From a virus: a DNA stretch of 24,926 nt. The notes under the pieces were generated by a model, which saw only the letters and a list, made by a program, of their open reading frames with translations, was not told the DNA's origin and ran no database searches. The stretch covers positions 1 to 24,926 of the IMG/VR virus record IMGVR_UViG_3300037076_000047, one strand, 5' to 3'. This document shows positions 1,005-20,016 of this stretch, piece by piece. The translations under genes and the position numbers were made by a program. Each line of letters starts with the position of its first letter. The stretch's first letter is position 1.

Positions 1005-1029
1005 CATTATAAGCACTAACTGTTATAGT
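1001..1029 (+). promoter_or_regulatory. promoter of the terminase unit, apparently leaderless
   Basis: GTGACA at 1001-1006 and TATAGT at 1024-1029 are 17 bases apart, five of six matches to consensus at each box. The terminase small subunit ATG is at 1038, eight bases after the -10 box, so transcription would start 0 to 2 bases before the ATG. No Shine-Dalgarno sequence lies between them. The -35 overlaps the TGA of the 17-aa ORF. Confidence 0.6.
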
Positions 1030-1037
1030 GTGGATAT

Positions 1038-1556
1038 ATGGAAGCTGAAAAACAGAAATACAATTCAGTTGATAAGCCTAAAGTAAATGGTGGCGCACGT
1101 CCTGGAGCTGGACGGCCTAAAGGTGGTATGAATGAATCTACTAAAATTAGAATGGCTGCAAAGCAAGAGTTCCAAAGACGAGTAGTTGCTATGTCAGACC
1201 AGTTGTTCAATGCTCAATATGATTTAGCTATAGGCGAGAAGTTCTTACTTGTTAAGAGAGTCGAAGGCGAAGGTAAGAATCGTAAGACATGGATTGAAAC
1301 AGTTACTAGCCTTGAGACTATAAAAGAATACATTGAAGATGACGGTGAATCACTTAATGATGGTGAAGATTTCTATTATCTCAGTACAAAGCCTGCTAAT
1401 AACATGGCACTCGATAGTTTATTAAATAGGGCATATGGCAAACCAGACGAGAAGCTTACGCTTGATGGTGAAGTTGGACCGCCTGTACGTAAGTTCAGTG
1501 AAAGCGAATTAGATGAACGAATCAGACAGTACTTACGACGATATACCGCTAATTGA
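1038..1556 (+). CDS. terS: terminase small subunit (probable)
   Basis: Probable DNA-recognition subunit of the packaging motor, which binds the packaging site and hands DNA to the large terminase. Residues 18-29 carry GGARPGAGRPKG, a Gly/Arg/Pro-rich, AT-hook-like motif found near the N-terminus of many phage small terminases. The 172-aa length, a charged central region and an acidic/basic C-terminal helix (FSESELDERIRQYLRRY) also fit. It lies immediately before the large terminase and overlaps it by 44 bases in another frame. The start has no ribosome site but a promoter -10 eight bases upstream, consistent with leaderless translation. Small terminases are poorly conserved, so the call rests on the motif and position. 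Confidence 0.8.
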   Translation: MEAEKQKYNSVDKPKVNGGARPGAGRPKGGMNESTKIRMAAKQEFQRRVVAMSDQLFNAQYDLAIGEKFLLVKRVEGEGKNRKTWIETVTSLETIKEYIEDDGESLNDGEDFYYLSTKPANNMALDSLLNRAYGKPDEKLTLDGEVGPPVRKFSESELDERIRQYLRRYTAN

Positions 1557-3144
1557 CCTACTAGATGAAGCCGATCGTAGACTGGCAGCTAAAGACCCTG
1601 TGTTCTTTATTGAGCATTATCTAAAGACATTTGACCCACGCCCTGAAGCATATCCGCATCACTTAGACTTTATACTGTATGATTACCAAATAGATTACGT
1701 GAACGGCTTAGTAGATGCAATACGCACCGGCCATGATATTATGGATGAGAAATCACGAGATATGGGTGCGTCATGGTTAGCCCTTGCGGTACGGTTCTGG
1801 TTCTGGCTATTTGAAGATGGATACCAGGCATTACTTGGCTCACGTAAAGAAGAGTATGTTGACGACAATACACTTGCCTCGTTATATGGGAAGATAGATT
1901 ATTTCATTGAAAACATCAAAGACCCCTTGTTATTACCCGATGGCTTCGATACAAAGAAGCACAGAACGTACATGAAATTAACTAATCCAGTAAACGGTAA
2001 CGTCGTAAAAGGTGAATCAAGCAATAAGAACTTCTCACGCGGTGGTCGCTATAAAGATGTACTATTTGATGAGATAGGCTTTTGGCCTGATGCTAGAGCC
2101 TCATGGACTGCAGCTGGTGACGCGACACGTTGCCGTCATGCTGTTACTACACCACCAGACCAACCCTCATTTGCTAAGACACTTAGGTTTAGTGATAAGG
2201 TAAAGGTTAGAACATGGCACTGGCACTTGCACCCACACAAAGATGACAAATGGTATGAGTATGAAAAGACACGCCGTACTGAAGAAGAAATCCTACACGA
2301 GCTAGATATTAGTTGGGAGTATTCAAGCACCGGTCGCCCTTACCCTGAGATTGCTAAAGTCCCATTTGAGCAGAACGGTTACGATGAAGAGATGCCGCTA
2401 TATGTATCAATCGACTTAGGGCTTGATGCGGTGGCACTTGGCTACTGGCAACCGATTAAAAACAGTGAGTGGATAAATCTGCTTGATGCACACGAAGAGA
2501 CTGACCACATTATTGAGTGGTACTTCCCATTCTTCGGGCTACAGGACTGTATAAACGTTCCAGAGTGTCCGTATTGTGGTAAACAGCATAACTTCGACTA
2601 CAATGAGAAACAGTTAGACTTTATGCGTAAGACTAGTAAATGGCGTAAGGACGTATTCTTCGGCGACCCGTCGGGTAAGCAGCGACATATTGAATCAGGT
2701 GTTAGCCCATATGCAATCCTTGAAGAGCATGGCATTGACGTACAGGTGAACGATCAAGAGAATGACTGGGTACATCGCCGCGACGCTACTAGACGATTAT
2801 TCACTCACCTAACAGTTAATGATACAGATGGTACGCGCTGGTGGGCTGAGGCAATTAAGAACGCTCATTATCCTAAACGAGAAGAGACAAGCCAAGCCGT
2901 TACGCCTATTACTAAACCAGTACACGACTGGACATCACACCATAGGACACAAACAGAGTTCTTTAGCGTAAACTACAAAGGAGAATATGACGCAGGGCTT
3001 GGGTTTGTATCACCTAATGCACCAGGTAAAGATAAAACTAAGGTTGAGTGGGAAGGTCAAGACGACGGCACGATACAAGGTACAGGCATAGATATACAAA
3101 GTTTAATCACCGGTAGTGGTGATAGGGATTGGAGAAGCATGTAA
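1513..3144 (+). CDS. terL: terminase large subunit (packaging ATPase and nuclease)
   Basis: Motor protein that uses ATP to drive DNA into the procapsid through the portal and cuts the concatemer. The ATPase domain shows a terminase-type Walker A, KSRDMGAS at 80-87, and a Walker B, VLFDE at 183-187. The C-terminal RNase H-like nuclease shows Asp301 in VSIDLGLD and Asp385 in VFFGDPSG, with a late HDW motif at 471-473 as candidate third acid. Residues 346-359 (C-x5-C-x2-C-x3-H, within CPYCGKQH) look like a small zinc-binding insertion in the nuclease domain. At 543 aa the length is normal. The ATG lies inside terS, 44 bases before its stop, with no clear ribosome site, so translation probably depends on terS. 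Confidence 0.93.
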   Translation: MNESDSTYDDIPLIDLLDEADRRLAAKDPVFFIEHYLKTFDPRPEAYPHHLDFILYDYQIDYVNGLVDAIRTGHDIMDEKSRDMGASWLALAVRFWFWLFEDGYQALLGSRKEEYVDDNTLASLYGKIDYFIENIKDPLLLPDGFDTKKHRTYMKLTNPVNGNVVKGESSNKNFSRGGRYKDVLFDEIGFWPDARASWTAAGDATRCRHAVTTPPDQPSFAKTLRFSDKVKVRTWHWHLHPHKDDKWYEYEKTRRTEEEILHELDISWEYSSTGRPYPEIAKVPFEQNGYDEEMPLYVSIDLGLDAVALGYWQPIKNSEWINLLDAHEETDHIIEWYFPFFGLQDCINVPECPYCGKQHNFDYNEKQLDFMRKTSKWRKDVFFGDPSGKQRHIESGVSPYAILEEHGIDVQVNDQENDWVHRRDATRRLFTHLTVNDTDGTRWWAEAIKNAHYPKREETSQAVTPITKPVHDWTSHHRTQTEFFSVNYKGEYDAGLGFVSPNAPGKDKTKVEWEGQDDGTIQGTGIDIQSLITGSGDRDWRSM

Positions 3145-3362
3145 TGTGGCAGTGGGTAATAATCTTAAACAAAAATAATCTTCCTAATGCAGTACCGTAC
3201 TTCTGCATGAGATGTAAGTCTAGGCTGTTCCATTTGAACCGTGATGTTATCGCTGTCTTTCAGGGCGAAGGTTATCCTGAAAAGGAAATCCCACGTAATA
3301 TGGGTATGGTTGAAATCAAGTGTCATGGCTGTGAAAGTAAATACACTTTTTATTATCAATAG
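3144..3362 (+). CDS. small zinc-ribbon protein, 72 aa
   Basis: Two CxxC pairs, C21-C24 (CMRC) and C60-C63 (CHGC), about 35 residues apart indicate a zinc ribbon or rubredoxin-like knuckle. Start chosen at ATG 3144, which overlaps the terL stop as TAATG and has GGAG at 3131-3134 nine bases upstream; an in-frame TTG at 3129 is possible but lacks a ribosome site. Small zinc-ribbon proteins next to terminases are seen in other phages, without a settled function. It could be a terminase accessory factor (terL itself has a zinc-like cluster), but that is inference from position only. Confidence 0.7.
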   Translation: MWQWVIILNKNNLPNAVPYFCMRCKSRLFHLNRDVIAVFQGEGYPEKEIPRNMGMVEIKCHGCESKYTFYYQ

Positions 3363-3366
3363 TTAG

Positions 3367-3375
3367 TGCTACAAT
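3367..3375 (+). promoter_or_regulatory. extended -10 promoter for portal/scaffold unit
   Basis: TGC followed by TACAAT (3370-3375) is an extended -10 element; the -35 region is only T-rich. It lies directly after the zinc-ribbon gene. Seven bases further on comes the AAGG box that also follows four other promoters in the window. Confidence 0.5.
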
Positions 3376-3390
3376 ATGCTTAAAGGCAAA

Positions 3391-3426
3391 GAGCCGCATT
3401 AGTTTGCGGTTCTTATTTATAAGGAG
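3391..3426 (+). promoter_or_regulatory. leader hairpin and AAGGAG site before the portal gene
   Basis: GAGCCGCA (3391-3398) pairs with TGCGGTTC (3405-3412) around a six-base loop, with one G-U pair; a U-rich stretch (TTATTTAT) and AAGGAG (3421-3426) follow. This is the first of five similar leaders. The U stretch is interrupted, so it is a weaker terminator than the copies at 6897 and 19080. Confidence 0.6.
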
Positions 3427-3507
3427 TTAAAAGCCATCAATCCTCAACTATTCAGCCAACCACAATCGGATTACAACCTAGACGACCTATCTAACAAAGA
3501 TGGAGAG

Positions 3508-5704: not shown

Positions 5705-6682
5705 ATGAAACCAGAAGAAGCAACTGTAATACCAGAGGCAGTAATCGAAGGTGACCCTAAAGTCGAACCAGCTAAAGAGGATAAACGAACAGTTAAAATT
5801 GATAGCCGTCGCTCACTAAGCGGCCAAGTCGATAAGTTCCTAAAGGCAGTACCCGAAGAGGTTAAGCCCGAAGAGCCAGTTAAGGAAGATGTCAAGCCTG
5901 TAGCTAAAGAAGTTGAAGCACCAGCCGAAGTCGAAGCACCCGAAGAGGTCGAGCTTGAAGATATTCCCGAAGAGACTAAGCAAGAACCACTACCTGAGGG
6001 GAAAAAGTATATTGTTGATAACCTGCCTAATATTCAGGTCATGGGACATCAAGGCGAAAACCCAGACAAGGTATTTAATGTTAAACTCCTAGAAGAACTA
6101 CCAGATGACTTTGAGTTTGCATCGAAGCGAGCTGAACTTGCTTTTAATGCTGCACTATCTGCTCAAGAGATTAACGCCCGTGACTTACTAACTAAGTATC
6201 GCCAAGAAGAATCACAGCGATCACAACGTGACTTCGAGGCTTTAGAGGCTGTCGATATTCAAAACGACGTTACTTCGCTACAAAAGCAAGGTATTCTCCC
6301 TAAGTTCAAATACGCCGTAAACGACCCACGCTTTAATGAAGACCCAGCCGTTCAAGAATCTAATAAGATTTATGCCTTTTATCAGAAAATTAATAGCGAC
6401 TACTTCAATAAATACCAGAACTCTGGTCGTATGTACCGAGTTAGCTATGAAGATGCAGCATTTAGATACTACGCACTTAATCCAAAGGAAGCCCCCAAAG
6501 AGGTTAAGGAAGCCATTAAAGAAGCTGACAAACCTAAGTCACCTAATCAAGTCCAGCGCGAGAAGGTTGCTACTCAAGTAAGCGCACCATCTGGTGCATC
6601 AACCGAAGGCCGACCACGCCCAATGCGAGCCGGTACATCACTCCAAAACGTATATCAAATGTATAAAAGAGGACAGATTTAA
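5705..6682 (+). CDS. scaffolding protein (probable)
   Basis: Likely capsid assembly scaffold, which co-assembles with the major capsid protein and leaves or is degraded before DNA packaging. It sits between portal and capsid genes, the standard position. Residues 1-105 are a low-complexity Glu/Pro/Val/Lys region (for example EAPAEVEAPEEVELEDIPEE), the middle is helical and charged, and the C-terminus is basic and Pro/Arg-containing (EGRPRPMRAG), as in scaffolds that contact capsid protein through a basic tail. AAGGAG at 5694-5699 precedes the ATG. No protease gene is visible between portal and capsid. Scaffolds diverge quickly, so this is position plus composition. Confidence 0.65.
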   Translation: MKPEEATVIPEAVIEGDPKVEPAKEDKRTVKIDSRRSLSGQVDKFLKAVPEEVKPEEPVKEDVKPVAKEVEAPAEVEAPEEVELEDIPEETKQEPLPEGKKYIVDNLPNIQVMGHQGENPDKVFNVKLLEELPDDFEFASKRAELAFNAALSAQEINARDLLTKYRQEESQRSQRDFEALEAVDIQNDVTSLQKQGILPKFKYAVNDPRFNEDPAVQESNKIYAFYQKINSDYFNKYQNSGRMYRVSYEDAAFRYYALNPKEAPKEVKEAIKEADKPKSPNQVQREKVATQVSAPSGASTEGRPRPMRAGTSLQNVYQMYKRGQI

Positions 6683-6852: not shown

Positions 6853-6882
6853 TTGACATCGATATAATAATTGGTGTATTAT
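6853..6882 (+). promoter_or_regulatory. strong promoter of the major capsid unit
   Basis: A perfect TTGACA at 6853-6858 is followed 18 bases later by TATTAT at 6877-6882, immediately preceded by TG. The stop of the upstream gene touches the -35. This is the best -35 in the window, fitting the high demand for capsid protein. A second TATAAT at 6863-6868 is part of the inverted repeat described separately. Confidence 0.75.
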
Positions 6883-6885
6883 ATC
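6861..6885. repeat. perfect 9-bp inverted repeat over the capsid promoter (operator candidate)
   Basis: GATATAATA (6861-6869) and TATTATATC (6877-6885) are exact reverse complements separated by seven bases. The repeat fills the promoter spacer and the -10 box, so a dimeric protein bound here would block RNA polymerase. Because both arms are AT-rich and contain -10-like sequence, a chance or bidirectional-promoter origin is also possible. Confidence 0.55.
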
Positions 6886-6896
6886 GTTATAAAAGG

Positions 6897-6927
6897 TAAC
6901 AGAGCCGCACGGCCCTGTTATTTTTTT
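6897..6927 (+). terminator. terminator-like hairpin in the capsid mRNA leader
   Basis: TAACAG/CTGTTA and GCC/GGC form a two-part stem (6897-6920) with an A-C mismatch and a GCAC loop, followed by seven T residues (6921-6927). Structurally this is a canonical intrinsic terminator, yet it lies downstream of the capsid promoter and upstream of the ATG at 6951. It could end transcription from the portal unit, attenuate the capsid promoter, or protect the capsid mRNA. Confidence 0.7.
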
Positions 6928-6950
6928 AGCATTAAAATAAGGAGACATTT

Positions 6951-8039
6951 ATGGCTGGACAGATTTTCACCAACCGCGTAACTGATATTACGTATCAGTA
7001 CATCTTGCCTGCACTTGTTGACAACGTTTCTAATTCAAACGTTTTCACATCCAAGTTGCTGTCAAACACAATCGACTGGGAAGGCACGACTTATAACGTA
7101 CCTATTCAGACTGCGTTTAGCACAACTGGTGGTTCATTCAACGGAATGGACACATTTAGCACCGCAGCAACAAATAACACTCGTCAGATGACGTTCTACA
7201 TCACTGGTCAATACCAGTCTATTGTCATCCCTGGCATCGAAGCAGCAGTAAACGGTAACACTGAATCTCAGGTTATCAAACTACTTACAGCTAAGATGGA
7301 CGAAGCTAAAATCTCGATGGCTGACGCTATTGGTACAGAGCTTTACGGCTTTGGACTTGGCAAAGCATTCGATGGTCTTGGAAATGTAGTAGACAACGGA
7401 ACAAACGCACCAACATACGGTGGCTTGAGCCGCACAACCTACCCATTCCTAGATGCAGACGTTACAACTGTAGCAAACGGTACAATTACACTTAGCTACC
7501 TATCTAGCGAGTTCGACAACGTATCAGCTGCAAGTTCAACTTCAGAAAGTCCTGACTACGGTCTTACGACTAAAGCTAACTGGACATTCATCGAAGGTTT
7601 GATTCAACCTATGCTATCTGCTCGTTATGAGAGTACTAGCGTTCGTGGGTACAACCGTGTAGATGGTAAAACACCACGTGGCGATGGCAAAACACCAGGC
7701 GCAGAATTAGGTGGTGCTGGCGGATTTATCTCAATCACATGGCGTGGTCGTGATATGTACGCTGACGACAAAGCAACTGCCGGTACATTCTACTGGATTA
7801 ACCAGAAGTACCTTGACTTTGCTGTACAAAAAAGCCCAGAACTTCGAGAAATTGGTTCAACTGTTGAGAGCATGGAAGGCTTCTACGAAGACGTACCATT
7901 CCCATCAGCATTCCAGTTCCGCGATATGATGAGTTCGATCAACCAACTTGGTGAAGTCGGAGTTGTTATACTTCTTGGTAACCTTATCTGCCGACAACCT
8001 CGCCGTAACGGTAAATTAATCGGAATAACGGGAAACTAG
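6951..8039 (+). CDS. major capsid protein (HK97-fold, probable)
   Basis: The 362-aa product has the look of HK97-fold phage coat proteins: a short N-terminal helix (QIFTNRVTDITYQYILPALV), an E-loop-like beta region with Gly/Thr/Ser-rich turns at about 40-80, a long central helix (ESQVIKLLTAKMDEAKISMA), and an aromatic beta-rich C-terminal half. It follows portal and scaffold and carries the strongest promoter and an excellent ribosome site (AAGGAG at 6939-6944), both expected for the most abundant virion protein. No N-terminal prodomain of protease type is visible, consistent with a separate scaffold. Confidence 0.83.
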   Translation: MAGQIFTNRVTDITYQYILPALVDNVSNSNVFTSKLLSNTIDWEGTTYNVPIQTAFSTTGGSFNGMDTFSTAATNNTRQMTFYITGQYQSIVIPGIEAAVNGNTESQVIKLLTAKMDEAKISMADAIGTELYGFGLGKAFDGLGNVVDNGTNAPTYGGLSRTTYPFLDADVTTVANGTITLSYLSSEFDNVSAASSTSESPDYGLTTKANWTFIEGLIQPMLSARYESTSVRGYNRVDGKTPRGDGKTPGAELGGAGGFISITWRGRDMYADDKATAGTFYWINQKYLDFAVQKSPELREIGSTVESMEGFYEDVPFPSAFQFRDMMSSINQLGEVGVVILLGNLICRQPRRNGKLIGITGN

Positions 8040-9103: not shown

Positions 9104-9133
9104 AGACCTCAGAAATGGGGTCTTTTTATTTTT
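9104..9133 (+). terminator. intrinsic terminator of the capsid unit
   Basis: AGACCTC (9104-9110) pairs with GGGGTCT (9117-9123) around a six-base loop, one G-U pair, followed by a run of T with one A to 9133. It follows the stop of the 90-aa gene by 17 bases and precedes the next promoter. Unlike the five leader hairpins it has no promoter or AAGG box directly in front of it, so it reads as an ordinary end-of-operon terminator. Confidence 0.8.
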
Positions 9134-9145
9134 AAGCATATATAG

Positions 9146-9151
9146 TATAAT
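9146..9151 (+). promoter_or_regulatory. -10 box six bases before an ATG (leaderless promoter)
   Basis: TATAAT at 9146-9151 lies six bases before the ATG at 9158, so initiation at the usual distance would fall on the A of the start codon. An overlapping TATAGT is at 9141-9146. The -35 region is only T-rich, being the tail of the terminator. There is no ribosome-binding sequence. Confidence 0.5.
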
Positions 9152-9157
9152 CCGCTC

Positions 9158-9331
9158 ATGGAGCTAAAATCTTTAGAAGATAAGAAACTTGCTATAGAGG
9201 CATCTTTTAACGAACTAACTAAACAAATATCTGACCTAGAGTCAGAGCGTGTTCGTTTACAGGGTGAATATAGGTTAGTTGACGAACTGATAACAAACTA
9301 TAAGGTTAAGGAGACAAAGAAAAATGGCTGA
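9158..9331 (+). CDS. 57-aa coiled-coil protein
   Basis: ATG at 9158 opens a frame ending at TGA 9329-9331 that encodes a highly charged helix with heptad-like spacing (LTKQISDLESERVRLQGEYR). It overlaps the next gene by eight bases. Its start has a consensus -10 box six bases upstream and no Shine-Dalgarno sequence, pointing to leaderless translation. The AAGGAG that serves the following gene lies inside this ORF. It may partner with the larger coiled-coil protein encoded at the end of the same unit; that is inference. Confidence 0.6.
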   Translation: MELKSLEDKKLAIEASFNELTKQISDLESERVRLQGEYRLVDELITNYKVKETKKNG

Positions 9332-9830: not shown

Positions 9831-10653
9831 GGAGTTAGACGAACGAGAAGAAAGCCTTAATCGTAAGGAAAGCCTCTTAGAGCGTGAAAAAAGCCTAGAG
9901 AGGGTTCAAGCCCTATATGCTGAGACTGAGACTAGGGTAGTTGTTCTAAACAAGCAAATCAAGGCTAAACAGGACATTTTGCAGGCTCATACTGACGAGC
10001 TAGATACTTTGTCGGCTAAATCCCAAGAAGAGGCTGATAGACTACGTCTGAAAGAGGACAGCATTAAGAAGTCTATCGCTATTCAAGAGACACTCTTATC
10101 GAAGGCTAAAGTCCAAGATGCTCAACTAGAAACACAGATTAAACGTACTAAGACTGAACTATCAAGTTTGCAAGACCAAGTCCGAGAGACTAAAACTTAT
10201 AGAGAAGAACAAAGCAGACTAGCCGAAGATACTATTGCCCAGTGGAATAGCGACCTTGTAGCCTTTCGTAAGGAAGCCGACGATATTCAATTTGAGAAGA
10301 ATAGACTATCGGCTGATATTATCCGCTTAGAGCAAGACCGCACCGCTATTACATTAGAAGTTCATGCGATCGAGCAAAAACTTGAATCACTTGACGAAAC
10401 ATATGCCGGTAAGGTTGAAGAGTATAAGTCTAGCTTACGGACTCTTGACCTGCAACAAGATGAAAAGAAGCGTGTATTTGATAGCCTATCTAACTCATAT
10501 GATATGCGTCTTAAAGAAGTCGAGACACGCGAAAAGTCTGTACGGCTTAAAGAAGTCAATATTAACACTCGTGAACACGACCTTGACCAAAAAGAGCGAC
10601 GCTTAAAAATGAATTACGGCATGGCTGGTATTGACTATGAAGATGTTGTATAA
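9796..10653 (+). CDS. long coiled-coil protein, 285 aa
   Basis: Nearly the whole protein (about residues 5-275) is Glu/Lys/Arg/Leu/Gln-rich with heptad periodicity (for example SRELDEREESLNRKESLLER), almost free of Pro and Gly, so it should form an elongated coiled coil, plausibly tens of nanometres long. The C-terminus (MNYGMAGIDYEDVV) breaks the pattern. ATG 9796 lies inside the preceding gene with no ribosome site, so coupling is likely. It could be a virion fibre or spacer, an ejected protein, or an assembly factor. No SMC-type or nuclease motif is seen. The promoter for the next unit overlaps its stop codon. Confidence 0.75.
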   Translation: MTQPLDLEKKSRELDEREESLNRKESLLEREKSLERVQALYAETETRVVVLNKQIKAKQDILQAHTDELDTLSAKSQEEADRLRLKEDSIKKSIAIQETLLSKAKVQDAQLETQIKRTKTELSSLQDQVRETKTYREEQSRLAEDTIAQWNSDLVAFRKEADDIQFEKNRLSADIIRLEQDRTAITLEVHAIEQKLESLDETYAGKVEEYKSSLRTLDLQQDEKKRVFDSLSNSYDMRLKEVETREKSVRLKEVNINTREHDLDQKERRLKMNYGMAGIDYEDVV

Positions 10654-10654
10654 T
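10649..10654 (+). promoter_or_regulatory. -10 box overlapping a stop codon
   Basis: TATAAT at 10649-10654 contains the TAA stop of the coiled-coil gene. No -35 at a normal distance is convincing. The AAGG box follows eight bases later, as at 13084 and 19058, which is the main support for a functional promoter here. Confidence 0.5.
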
Positions 10655-10667
10655 CAAGCCATAAGGT

Positions 10668-10691
10668 AAGAGCCGCAGACGGTTCTTTTTT
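10668..10691 (+). terminator. terminator-like leader hairpin before the 114-aa gene
   Basis: AAGAGCCG (10668-10675) pairs with CGGTTCTT (10680-10687) around CAGA, with one G-U pair, running into a T-rich stretch to 10691. The ATG at 10698 follows with no ribosome site after the hairpin. It may terminate the coiled-coil unit, regulate the next one, or fold away the gap between the AAGG at 10663-10666 and the ATG. Confidence 0.65.
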
Positions 10692-10697
10692 ATTTAT

Positions 10698-11042
10698 ATG
10701 CCCTGGATAACGAATAAACAACCCTTTGGACAAAACCACGCACCTCTTCTAACAGGTGTTTCTTCGGCTGATGAAACTACGACCGTACCTGTTGCTGTTG
10801 ATCCCACGACTGGCGCTTTACTTACTTATGGCGCTGGTGGCTCAACTGCTACCGTTGTTGGTATCGGTCCTGTTGGTCAATACCAAGTGCCATATGACAC
10901 AATTACGTACACAGCGACAAGTGCGACCGTCGATACTTATACGTATAAAGCAGGCGGCACTGGCGGTACGACAACTGCGACTGTTACTGTTACATTTACA
11001 GATTCAACTCATGCCACTTTAGTATCTGTTGTGAGGACTTAA
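10698..11042 (+). CDS. small structural protein, 114 aa
   Basis: Begins MPWITNKQPFGQNHAPLLTG, followed by VPVAVDPTTGALLTYGAG, an N-terminal pattern seen in small phage structural and fibre proteins. The rest is Thr/Val/Ala-rich beta sequence with a Gly/Thr repeat (GGTGGTTTATVTVTF). No Shine-Dalgarno sequence lies within 15 bases of the ATG; upstream is the U-rich end of the leader hairpin. Its stop is immediately followed by the ATG of the fibre gene. Probably a fibre-associated or decoration protein. Confidence 0.6.
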   Translation: MPWITNKQPFGQNHAPLLTGVSSADETTTVPVAVDPTTGALLTYGAGGSTATVVGIGPVGQYQVPYDTITYTATSATVDTYTYKAGGTGGTTTATVTVTFTDSTHATLVSVVRT

Positions 11043-13060: not shown

Positions 13061-13089
13061 TTGTAACTAATAACTAAAATAGGTATAAT
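13061..13089 (+). promoter_or_regulatory. promoter of the tail unit
   Basis: TTGTAA (13061-13066) and TATAAT (13084-13089) are separated by exactly 17 bases in the gap after the fibre gene. The AAGG box begins eight bases after the -10. Confidence 0.75.
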
Positions 13090-13095
13090 GTCCTT

Positions 13096-13136
13096 ATAAG
13101 GCTCCAGCCGTTGCTTGGGCTATTTTTAATAAGGAG
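13096..13136 (+). promoter_or_regulatory. weak leader hairpin and AAGGAG before the 133-aa gene
   Basis: After the ATAAGG start box, AGCC and GGCT can form only a four-pair stem with an eight-base loop, followed by ATTTTT and then AAGGAG at 13131-13136. This is the most degenerate of the five leaders: the order of elements is kept but the stem is poor, so it should terminate little. Confidence 0.5.
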
Positions 13137-13141
13137 AAATA

Positions 13142-13543
13142 ATGGCAACATACATATTCGCAACTAAGCCACAGCCAACTGAACCAGGCCAACTTAGTAA
13201 CTTCGAGGGTCTTGTAAATGACGCAAACCACAATGCTATGACTGGCGCTGTTGGTAGTGGATTTCAAACTGTAGATATTTCGGGTACACCGATTGTATCA
13301 CCTGCAACAGTTTCTAACTCAGCTGTTACGACACTGACTATTCCGCTAAATGCAACTGAGGTAAACTTCCTAGCTGCAACAAACACAGTAAATGTAAGTG
13401 AATCGACTGCAGCGGTTACATCTAACTATCTGACAATACCTGTTGGTGTTGTTACGACACTTCCTGTAGCACGTATGCAAAAGCTTTATTTAGAGGCAAA
13501 CACTGGTTCAGCAACTGTTAGTTTCTGGTTCACTATAGTTTAA
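13142..13543 (+). CDS. structural protein, 133 aa
   Basis: Polar N-terminus (ATYIFATKPQPTEPGQLSNF), then a Thr/Val/Ala-rich beta domain with repeated hydrophobic strands and a final strand SATVSFWFTIV, resembling the small jelly-roll or decoration proteins of phage virions. No cysteine and no membrane segment. AAGGAG stands five bases before the ATG, and the gene is first in the tail unit with its own promoter, so the protein is probably abundant. Specific role unknown. Confidence 0.6.
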   Translation: MATYIFATKPQPTEPGQLSNFEGLVNDANHNAMTGAVGSGFQTVDISGTPIVSPATVSNSAVTTLTIPLNATEVNFLAATNTVNVSESTAAVTSNYLTIPVGVVTTLPVARMQKLYLEANTGSATVSFWFTIV

Positions 13544-18546: not shown

Positions 18547-19039
18547 TGGCCCTATTTCAGTTTCAGCCCCAGGTGTATCACTTATAGGCGCACAAGCCAA
18601 AGATATTACTTTTAGCACTCGCTATCCATTTGCGAAATTAGATACGACTAACCCTGTTAGTTTTCAGGTTATTACCATTTTCTTAAACTCTGAACCACCG
18701 AACCCTGGCGTTGTAAACACTAGTGTTCAGACTTTAATATATTCATATCCACATGGCTACAAATATGTGCCGTCATCATGGTTTTTAATATCTTTAGATA
18801 ACTTCCAAACTGTCGCAGCGCAAGAGGGTGGATATATTCAAGGTGCGACAAGTGGCGCTGGTACAAGTAACTCAACCCTAATAATTACAGTGGATGCCAC
18901 AAACGTTAATATATACGTCAATAAGTTTTGGGGTTCTGGTAGTCCAGGACCTATAGCGATCATTGGATATTTCATATCAATTCGTGCTTACATATTTGCT
19001 GAGGGATTGTTAGGTGACAGCGTTCCAATTCACGCTTGA
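18539..19039 (+). CDS. minor structural protein, 166 aa (paralogue of the previous gene)
   Basis: The N-terminus PISVSAPGVS (5-14), FSTRYPFAKL (25-34) and HGYKYVP (72-78) line up with the corresponding motifs of the 256-aa protein, so the pair looks like a tandem duplication in which this copy is shorter. The rest is beta-strand sequence with an aromatic core. It overlaps the previous gene by eight bases; the -35 of the next promoter overlaps its TGA stop. Probably a minor tail or appendage subunit. Confidence 0.7.
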   Translation: MDNGPISVSAPGVSLIGAQAKDITFSTRYPFAKLDTTNPVSFQVITIFLNSEPPNPGVVNTSVQTLIYSYPHGYKYVPSSWFLISLDNFQTVAAQEGGYIQGATSGAGTSNSTLIITVDATNVNIYVNKFWGSGSPGPIAIIGYFISIRAYIFAEGLLGDSVPIHA

Positions 19040-19063
19040 TATTTTTATTTAACTTGCTATAAT
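19036..19063 (+). promoter_or_regulatory. promoter of the ejection-protein unit
   Basis: TTGATA (19036-19041) and TATAAT (19058-19063) are 16 bases apart, and the -10 is extended by TGC. TTGATA contains the TGA stop of the preceding gene. The AAGG box follows eight bases later. Confidence 0.75.
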
Positions 19064-19079
19064 TACCCTATAAGGTAAC

Positions 19080-19103
19080 AAGCCGCTGACGAGCGGTTTT
19101 TTT
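19080..19103 (+). terminator. terminator-like leader hairpin before the 297-aa gene
   Basis: AAGCCGCT (19080-19087) pairs with AGCGGTTT (19092-19099) around GACG, with one G-U pair, followed by T to 19103. A separate ribosome site AAGGA (19111-19115) stands seven bases before the ATG at 19123. As at 6897, this canonical terminator shape is inside the predicted leader, immediately downstream of a good promoter. Confidence 0.7.
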
Positions 19104-19122
19104 ATTTACAAAGGAATAATAC

Positions 19123-20016
19123 ATGGTAGCACTACTCAGCCCAGACCAGATGCAAGCAAACCAGTATCAGCAAGATACTCAACTGCAAAACTTCTATAAC
19201 CAAAACGCAAATGATGCGACTAATTCCTATAAGCAAGCACAGACTGGTGCAAATACGGCCCAGAGCCAACTACAAGACTTCACTAAGAATATGCAGTCTG
19301 GTACTGACATCTATGGTAAACAACTCGGGCTTGCTAACCAAAATGCTGGTTATGATGTAAATAACTTAAATCAAGCACAGAACCAAGTATCTCAAATTAC
19401 GGGCATTATGGGCGGTTTACCTCGTGCTATTCAAGCTTCTAATGCTAACTATGGTGCTACCGCTGGTAACGTTGCTAATCAGTATGCTACTACTGGTGCT
19501 AACCTAAACCAATCACTTCAACTTGCTAACCAGAATACTCAGAACCAGTTGCAGAAACAAACCGCTGGGCTTACTGGCGCACAAAATGCTACTACCGCCG
19601 GTATCCAGACGCAAGACCAACAGAGGCAAGGTTATGCTGCCGCTGCCGCAAATGCGACAAACATCATGCAAAACGCACAAACACAGATGAGCGAAATGAT
19701 TAAGGCCCAACAACAAGGGCAACAGCTTACTGCACAAGACCAAGCAACGTTTGGTCAATTACGTGCAAGTTATGCTGCCGCTGCTCAAGCAAATGCCATC
19801 GCTCAACAAACTTTGCAACAAATCGACTTCGCACAGCAAGTACATGATAAAGCCGCCGCTGCCGCTGCTGCTCCAACTACTCAAGCCACAACTGCTAATA
19901 CTTATGGAGTACTTCAAGCAAGCGCCAATAAACCTGCTCCTCAACAGGCTAGTTGGTTTGGTCAGAATGTCGTCAACCCTGTAGCTAACTGGTGGAACAG
20001 CCTACCTAATTATTAG
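19123..20016 (+). CDS. internal virion / DNA-ejection protein (probable), 297 aa
   Basis: Almost entirely Gln, Asn, Ala and Thr in long helical stretches (QTGANTAQSQLQDFTKN; NLNQSLQLANQNTQNQLQKQ), with an alanine run encoded at about 19850-19870 and a short aromatic C-terminus (ASWFGQNVVNPVANWWNSLP). There is no cysteine and almost no charge pattern. This composition, the late position after the tail tube genes and the pairing with a much larger Gly-rich protein match the ejection proteins of podoviruses, which pass through the portal and help form a DNA conduit across the envelope. The W-rich end may insert in membrane. Identity is from composition and order. Confidence 0.6.
   Translation: MVALLSPDQMQANQYQQDTQLQNFYNQNANDATNSYKQAQTGANTAQSQLQDFTKNMQSGTDIYGKQLGLANQNAGYDVNNLNQAQNQVSQITGIMGGLPRAIQASNANYGATAGNVANQYATTGANLNQSLQLANQNTQNQLQKQTAGLTGAQNATTAGIQTQDQQRQGYAAAAANATNIMQNAQTQMSEMIKAQQQGQQLTAQDQATFGQLRASYAAAAQANAIAQQTLQQIDFAQQVHDKAAAAAAAPTTQATTANTYGVLQASANKPAPQQASWFGQNVVNPVANWWNSLPNY

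Follow-up and report, generated by a model that had tools for sequence, protein, structure and literature searches.

Promoter-hairpin leaders in the late region of a phage genome

We analyzed an IMG/VR virus record of 24,926 bases, the whole of which is referred to here as the window. Its + strand encodes TerL, an SU10/P22-type portal, scaffold, the major capsid protein, an adaptor, and tail and virion proteins, and a Cpn60-type chaperonin is encoded on the - strand. With the window capsid protein as query, 28 close IMG/VR relatives were recovered, followed by more distant capsid relatives that included a contig inside a ~0.9-Mb MAG. There was no DNA match for the window among 50,697 phage records, and the nearest named record was the TM7 phage DolZOral124_53_65 (MG269973; L088), whose host belongs to candidate division TM7 (Saccharibacteria). 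The two phages have a chaperonin gene in common and their capsid proteins are 52% identical, the window protein matching the product of L088 18550-19626 across 98% of the query. Because of this kinship in capsid and chaperonin, the host of the window phage is likely to be a member of the Saccharibacteria or of closely related Patescibacteria. The capsid gene of DolZOral124_53_65 (L088 18550-19626) carries the annotation 'homeodomain-like protein'. Among the relatives, the 76.8-kb record G004 (IMGVR_UViG_3300033475_000014) combines the phage genes of G003 with a similarly long stretch of other phage-like genes; it could be a composite element, or two phages joined in a chimera. Long repeats of the VRDQVWDQV type occur in non-structural proteins of three relatives (G002 5-877, G005 33890-35224, and G013 106-1563).

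The original prediction placed five promoter-hairpin leaders in the window, at 3370, 6877, 10649, 13084, and 19058, and all five were found there (Table 1). The distances from the -10 box to AAGG were 7, 10, 8, 8, and 8 nt as predicted, AGCCG lay within the 5' arm of the hairpin in all five window copies, and a Shine-Dalgarno (SD) sequence followed four of the leaders (at 3421, 6939, 13131, and 19111) and was missing at 10649. The expected U-rich stretch was also seen, but the T-tract was weak in copies 3370 and 13084, whose terminator scores were -5.8 and below 0, respectively; copies 10649 and 19058 scored 17.8 and 30.1. When the leaders were folded and compared to 200 shuffles each, four of the five beat all shuffles (z of -5.0 at 3370, -4.9 at 6877, -3.8 at 10649, and -3.5 at 19058, i.e. 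-3.5 to -5.0), and the signal at 13084 was weak (z -1.1). Folding further indicated that the A-rich box of the window leaders is able to pair with the U-tract. A good -35 box was generally present only at the capsid promoter, the remaining late promoters mostly consisting of a -10 box alone; the -10 box of the third copy (10649-10654) overlaps the 3' end of the upstream gene.

Table 1. Coordinates of the leader copies and of two further features in the window
Feature	Position	Strand	Elements
Leader copy 1, portal unit	3370..3438	+	-10 TACAAT 3370-3375; AAGG 3383-3386; hairpin 3389-3414; U-rich 3411-3420; SD AAGGAG 3421-3426; start codon ATC 3436-3438
Leader copy 2, major capsid unit	6853..6951	+	-35 TTGACA 6853-6858; -10 TATTAT 6877-6882; AAGG 6893-6896; hairpin 6897-6920; U7 6921-6927; SD 6939-6944; ATG 6951
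Leader copy 3	10649..10698	+	-10 TATAAT 10649-10654; AAGG 10663-10666; hairpin 10668-10687; U-tract to ~10695; ATG 10698 without SD
Leader copy 4	13084..13142	+	-10 13084-13089; AAGG 13098-13101; hairpin 13100-13121; TATTTTT; SD 13131-13136; ATG 13142
Leader copy 5	19036..19123	+	-35 TTGATA 19036-19041; -10 TATAAT 19058-19063 (TGC extension); AAGG 19072-19075; hairpin 19080-19099; U-tract 19098-19108; SD-like AAGGAA 19111-19116; ATG 19123
Stand-alone terminator 3' of capsid unit	9104..9133	+	No promoter box; comparison case; terminator score 23.1
g3129, zinc-ribbon protein, candidate trans-acting factor	3144..3362	+	Between TerL and portal; four invariant cysteines

The portal gene apparently begins with ATC or ATT, followed by Asn-Pro-Gln, in the window (3436-3438), G002, G003, G005, G007, L009, and L012, and an ATG occupies this position in the orthologues of G001, G006, L007, L015, L018, and L031; portal genes thus seem to have conserved non-canonical start codons downstream of a good SD. 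Orthologues of the 10698 gene start with ATA or ATC after AGGAG in five genomes (G002, G003, G005, L007, and L009), and those that start with ATG lack an SD and have the ATG directly after the U-tract (window, G001, G007, L018, and L029), so that there seems to be a trade-off between start codon strength and SD in this unit. A TATAAT a few bases 5' of ATG 9158 (window 9142-9160), right after the 9104 terminator, suggests a leaderless transcript at 9158, and a TATAGT followed by ATG 1038 (window 1024-1040) resembles this arrangement.

The leader marks late units across related phages

We searched related contigs with a strict descriptor comprising a -10 box, gap, AAGG-like box, hairpin, and T-tract. 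The descriptor matched 33 sites in 13 related contigs compared to none in 26 shuffled contig equivalents scanned on both strands. We also scanned the 125 bases upstream of orthologues of the window genes in 35 contigs. The element preceded the capsid gene in 31 of 34 cases by script, and in 34 of 34 when three identified by eye (L023, L033, and L081) were counted; it likewise preceded the 10698 gene (12/15 orthologues), the 13142 gene (13/15), and the 19123 gene (7/7), and was present upstream of the portal gene in several genomes. The same 125-base scan found no element upstream of the operon-internal genes for TerL (0/15), scaffold (0/20), g3129 (0/25), g6682 (0/23), g9796 (0/18), g14487 (0/14), and the chaperonin (0/9). 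A sixth copy opened the unit adjoining the chaperonin in 8 of 9 genomes of relatives, and this unit encodes a lysin (GH25), identifying it as a lysis cassette. Hence the five late units originally proposed are all real, but there are at least six, the lysis cassette lying outside this fragment. Promoters of the early region had -35 and -10 boxes and carried neither box nor hairpin. Thus, with the element sitting at the starts of late units and missing from operon interiors and early promoters, it is, as judged by genomic position, a mark of the late gene class.

The leader regulon has a limited distribution. It was absent from DolZOral124_53_65 despite the 52% capsid identity, and at least one unit of the oral TM7 phage (that of the 1505-2554 gene) showed the usual terminator-then-promoter order; by eye, L089 (27% capsid identity) showed promoter followed by terminator. 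The promoter-then-terminator order is therefore a trait of the window lineage and some distant relatives. A scan of the viral collection with the leader pattern returned 19 stretches, mostly from the phage group of the window and five of them from outside it. One of these five, in L075 (IMGVR_UViG_3300009002_000794; 6044-6082, - strand), has promoter and hairpin, the strong promoter leading into ACATAAGGCGAAGCCCCCTTATGTTTTTT; the contig encodes no homologous proteins, no gene lies immediately downstream, and the stretch is possibly a tiny RNA. The four other stretches from outside the group look like chance.

The hairpin is maintained by compensatory change and resembles an intrinsic terminator

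In 13 capsid leaders, 6 of the 12 base pairs had changed on both sides with pairing kept, and leaders of the 13142 gene showed the same type of change (GGCTCC...GGAGCT in G002 versus GGCCGC...GCGGCT in G003). The original prediction had named a lack both of compensatory changes and of conservation in relatives as evidence against it; pairs do co-change, and box and stem are conserved by position. Its proposal that the late mRNAs share a common 5' leader is therefore borne out by synteny, by compensatory changes, and by position relative to the -10 box. A covariance model built from capsid leaders recovered these leaders but, among the other units of the same genomes, picked up just a single one, in one relative, indicating that arms and lengths differ between units. 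No Rfam family scored above its gathering score, the best overlap being DUF2815 (23.7 bits versus 41.2).

We assessed terminator-likeness by the d'Aubenton-Carafa score (a score above 0 counted as a pass). The median hairpin energy of the 74 scored copies was -9.1 kcal/mol, and 60 of the 74 scored above 0 compared to none of 75 shuffles. The scored copies shared the anatomy of an intrinsic terminator, a G+C hairpin with an immediate U-tract, the U content after the stem being 85% in nt 1-8 and 30% in nt 9-16. Taking the 7th base after the -10 box as +1, a position occupied by A in 52 of 75 copies, the U-tract started at a median of +28 (5-95%: +23 to +34). The leaders also have the anatomy of an attenuator, in that the terminator-like hairpin separates the promoter from the gene that opens the unit.

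The 5' half of the leader evolves in concert within each genome

Leaders serving purely as hairpins would be expected to diverge in sequence independently of one another. To compare leader segments, different copies within one genome were set against copies dealt randomly among genomes, locus by locus; the resulting permutation z-score is indicative, as the tree is ignored, and control segments were passed through the same test. In a set without near-duplicates, the 5' box plus 5' arm (the first ~18 nt) had a within-genome similarity of 0.503 compared to an expected 0.363 (sd 0.015; z = 9; 0 of 1000 permutations). The corresponding z was 2.0 for the 3' arm plus U-tract, 2.1 for the 32 nt upstream of the -10 box, and -0.4 for the downstream stretch. 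The copies changed jointly from clade to clade, reading ATAAGGTAA..AGCCG in the clade of the window, AAGGCCTGAGCCA in G009, AAAGCCTGAGCCA in G012 and G013, and AGGTATNGAGCCA in G010. AGCCG, given in the original prediction for all five leaders, accordingly holds for the clade of the window, but other clades carry AAGGCCTGAGCC, AAAGCCTGAGCC, or AGGTATNGAGCC. Furthermore, the A of GAGCC was invariant in 13 of 13 capsid leaders even where it faces C, which argues that the 5' arm is conserved in its sequence as such and not for pairing alone. The restriction of concerted change to the 5' box and 5' arm points to a single trans-acting factor, and the simplest reading is that one such factor per phage would recognize the 5' part, the 3' arm needing only to pair.

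A conditional terminator as a putative late switch

We consider the chances evenly balanced that the element is a promoter-proximal conditional terminator, or attenuator, common to all late units. The coordinated attenuation or antitermination raised in the original prediction gives the best fit, backed by the concerted evolution of the 5' half and by the terminator-like scores, although termination, the factor, and its role in timing are all putative. Each late unit has its own promoter, and the transcript is predicted to start at the A ~7 nt past the -10 box, to enter the hairpin within ~10 nt, and to reach the U-tract at about +28. Host RNA polymerase would normally halt at about +30 to +40, keeping late gene expression low even though the promoters resemble ordinary promoters of the host. 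A factor produced earlier by the phage would then bind the nascent RNA at its shared 5' box and 5' arm and either block pairing of the 3' arm or alter the polymerase, so that all late units would be transcribed in unison; in addition, these hairpins probably terminate read-through transcripts arriving from the upstream unit. Such conditional termination would fit a terminator-like hairpin with a U-tract ~28 nt after the start, together with a recognition sequence common to the copies and located within the first ~18 nt. The early promoters and the capsid promoter alike have the ordinary -35/-10 architecture, and the timing of capsid expression is thus unlikely to reside in the core promoter sequence. 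Against an attenuator stand the scores below 0 of two of the five window copies, the absence of the element from a named relative whose capsid protein is 52% identical, and the differences in arms and lengths between units that appeared with the covariance model. Family searches with the early proteins scanned gave no match, and none of these proteins was an annotated antiterminator. A search of the phage genomes for a small RNA able to pair with the shared 5' sequence yielded nothing beyond the antisense strands of the leaders, with no additional site in common.

The strongest rival, which we hold to be unlikely yet worth serious attention, is a structured 5' UTR that doubles as an insulator. 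As in the hairpin leader of T7 gene 10, the hairpin would shield the 5' ends of late mRNAs from decay and the U-rich stretch would aid ribosomes, and hairpin and U-tract together would terminate transcripts arriving from upstream, making a regulator unnecessary. The hairpin does lie near the predicted 5' end, and the A-rich box can pair with the U-tract. Moreover, the late region of the window contains a single good stand-alone terminator, which makes it likely that the leader hairpins form the ends of upstream units, and the overlap of promoter and upstream gene at 10649 is in keeping with this. However, stability and insulation leave unexplained why concerted evolution within genomes takes in one arm together with the unpaired 5' box but spares the other arm, nor does a leader needing only stability account for a U-tract directly after the stem.

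Box and 5' arm could alternatively act as DNA, as a downstream promoter element bound by a phage late activator or by paused sigma as in lambda Q. The nearly fixed distance of the box from the -10 box would suit such an element, and an activator would make sense at late promoters that mostly lack a -35; yet the spacing from box to AGCC varies from 4 to 6 nt within one genome and RNA pairing is kept by compensatory change, and we regard this explanation as improbable. Decidedly improbable is a cis-acting RNA similar to the put sites of phage HK022, in which the nascent leader would bind the polymerase and cause it to ignore terminators, including those ahead. The location directly 3' of promoters, the linear box plus hairpin, and the conserved sequence speak for it. 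However, the likeness to put leaders suggested in the original prediction fails on anatomy: put has two stem-loops in ~70 nt, whereas the leader has one short hairpin of ~20 nt that ends in its own U-tract, and genome-specific co-variation is harder to explain with the conserved host polymerase as partner. It is very improbable that the promoters yield short (~30-40 nt), stable, trans-acting RNAs with late genes expressed through rare read-through, since the terminator-like hairpin immediately after the promoter, which would suit such RNAs, is tied to the points where structural and lysis units begin and in most cases has an SD close behind it, and the phage genomes offer no plausible complementary target besides the leader antisense. 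An origin by chance, or from promoter architecture general to the host lineage, is hardly credible: AT-rich intergenic DNA does yield promoter-like matches (44 found versus 38.9 expected), but the lack of descriptor matches in shuffled contigs refutes a chance origin, conservation is unit-specific, early promoters lack the element, and 192 genomes from the phylum of the small-genome MAG that holds a relative gave no match to the leader pattern, a weak argument since the pattern was narrow.

A zinc-ribbon protein as candidate factor

We searched for a partner of the conditional terminator and obtained one lead only, g3129. This CxxC...CxxC protein stood out among the proteins that all genomes possess and that are encoded outside the leader-controlled units; it was present in 25 of the contigs tested, its four cysteines being invariant even in distant relatives. 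By profile, g3129 was not detected in MG269973 or L081, both of which lack a multi-unit leader; the two genomes behind this co-occurrence are themselves related. The best relative scored 14.9 bits against Pfam Zn_ribbon_Com (cut-off 22.9), hhalign aligned g3129 to Mu Com over one zinc knuckle alone (13 columns, probability 74%), and the predicted structure (mean pLDDT 74) had no PDB match at E < 1. One speculative and rather doubtful version of the model is a Tat/TAR-like late switch of Saccharibacteria phages, in which the small zinc-ribbon protein from between TerL and portal would recognize the 5' box and arm of six late transcripts and free the polymerase from the terminator that follows.

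Comparison with known systems and implications

Several phage systems share features with the leader. The T7 gene 10 leader has a 5' hairpin, an A/U-rich stretch, and an SD ahead of the capsid gene; it lacks a U-tract directly after the stem, is made by a phage polymerase, and has its sequence fixed by the T7 promoter. The window capsid leader likewise combines a 5' hairpin, a U-rich stretch, and an SD, but leaders of the window group have the U-tract immediately 3' of the stem. In lambda, the late promoter PR' appears constitutive, an intrinsic terminator (tR') lies nearby, and the phage factor Q opens the way. Here too a late promoter is followed by a nearby terminator-like element, which a factor would open; unlike in lambda, the module is present at each of six separate late units, with a U-tract from ~28 nt after the start onwards. 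The early proteins scanned gave no match to a Q family protein or homologue; these proteins, the window being a fragment, comprise part of the early genes.

In Xp10, intrinsic terminators precede late genes and the small phage protein p7 lets host polymerase pass (PMC6624301). The present phages also have terminator-like hairpins ahead of late genes; no p7-like protein was found in them, and they differ in the genome-specific 5' sequence conserved in window-group leaders, which suggests sequence-specific recognition. In its regulatory logic, with terminators ahead of late genes being bypassed, the proposed switch appears closest to Xp10 p7 and lambda Q, and differs from both in being a module repeated unit by unit with a genome-specific 5' sequence. 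HK022 put sites comprise ~70 nt with two stem-loops, do not need a factor, and lie at early promoters (PMC9378689); structured RNA directly after a phage promoter is the common feature, whereas one hairpin plus U-tract at late promoters sets the present leaders apart. Mu Com is a small CxxC...CxxC phage protein that binds the mom leader hairpin (PMC6483171), and window-group phages encode a protein with four such cysteines; however, Com controls the translation of just one gene, and the similarity is confined to one zinc knuckle.

An open-access literature search found no description of a shared late leader of this kind. Gene timing is little known in phages of Saccharibacteria and related tiny bacteria, which are hard to culture, and a leader that occurs six times per genome with a genome-specific putative recognition sequence defines their late regulon from sequence alone. 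Within the scope of that search, it would represent the first regulatory RNA element known from these phages. If the factor were found, it would provide a compact, sequence-specific on-switch acting at transcript starts, and if the Tat/TAR-like switch were true, the whole virion and lysis program would be turned on at once.
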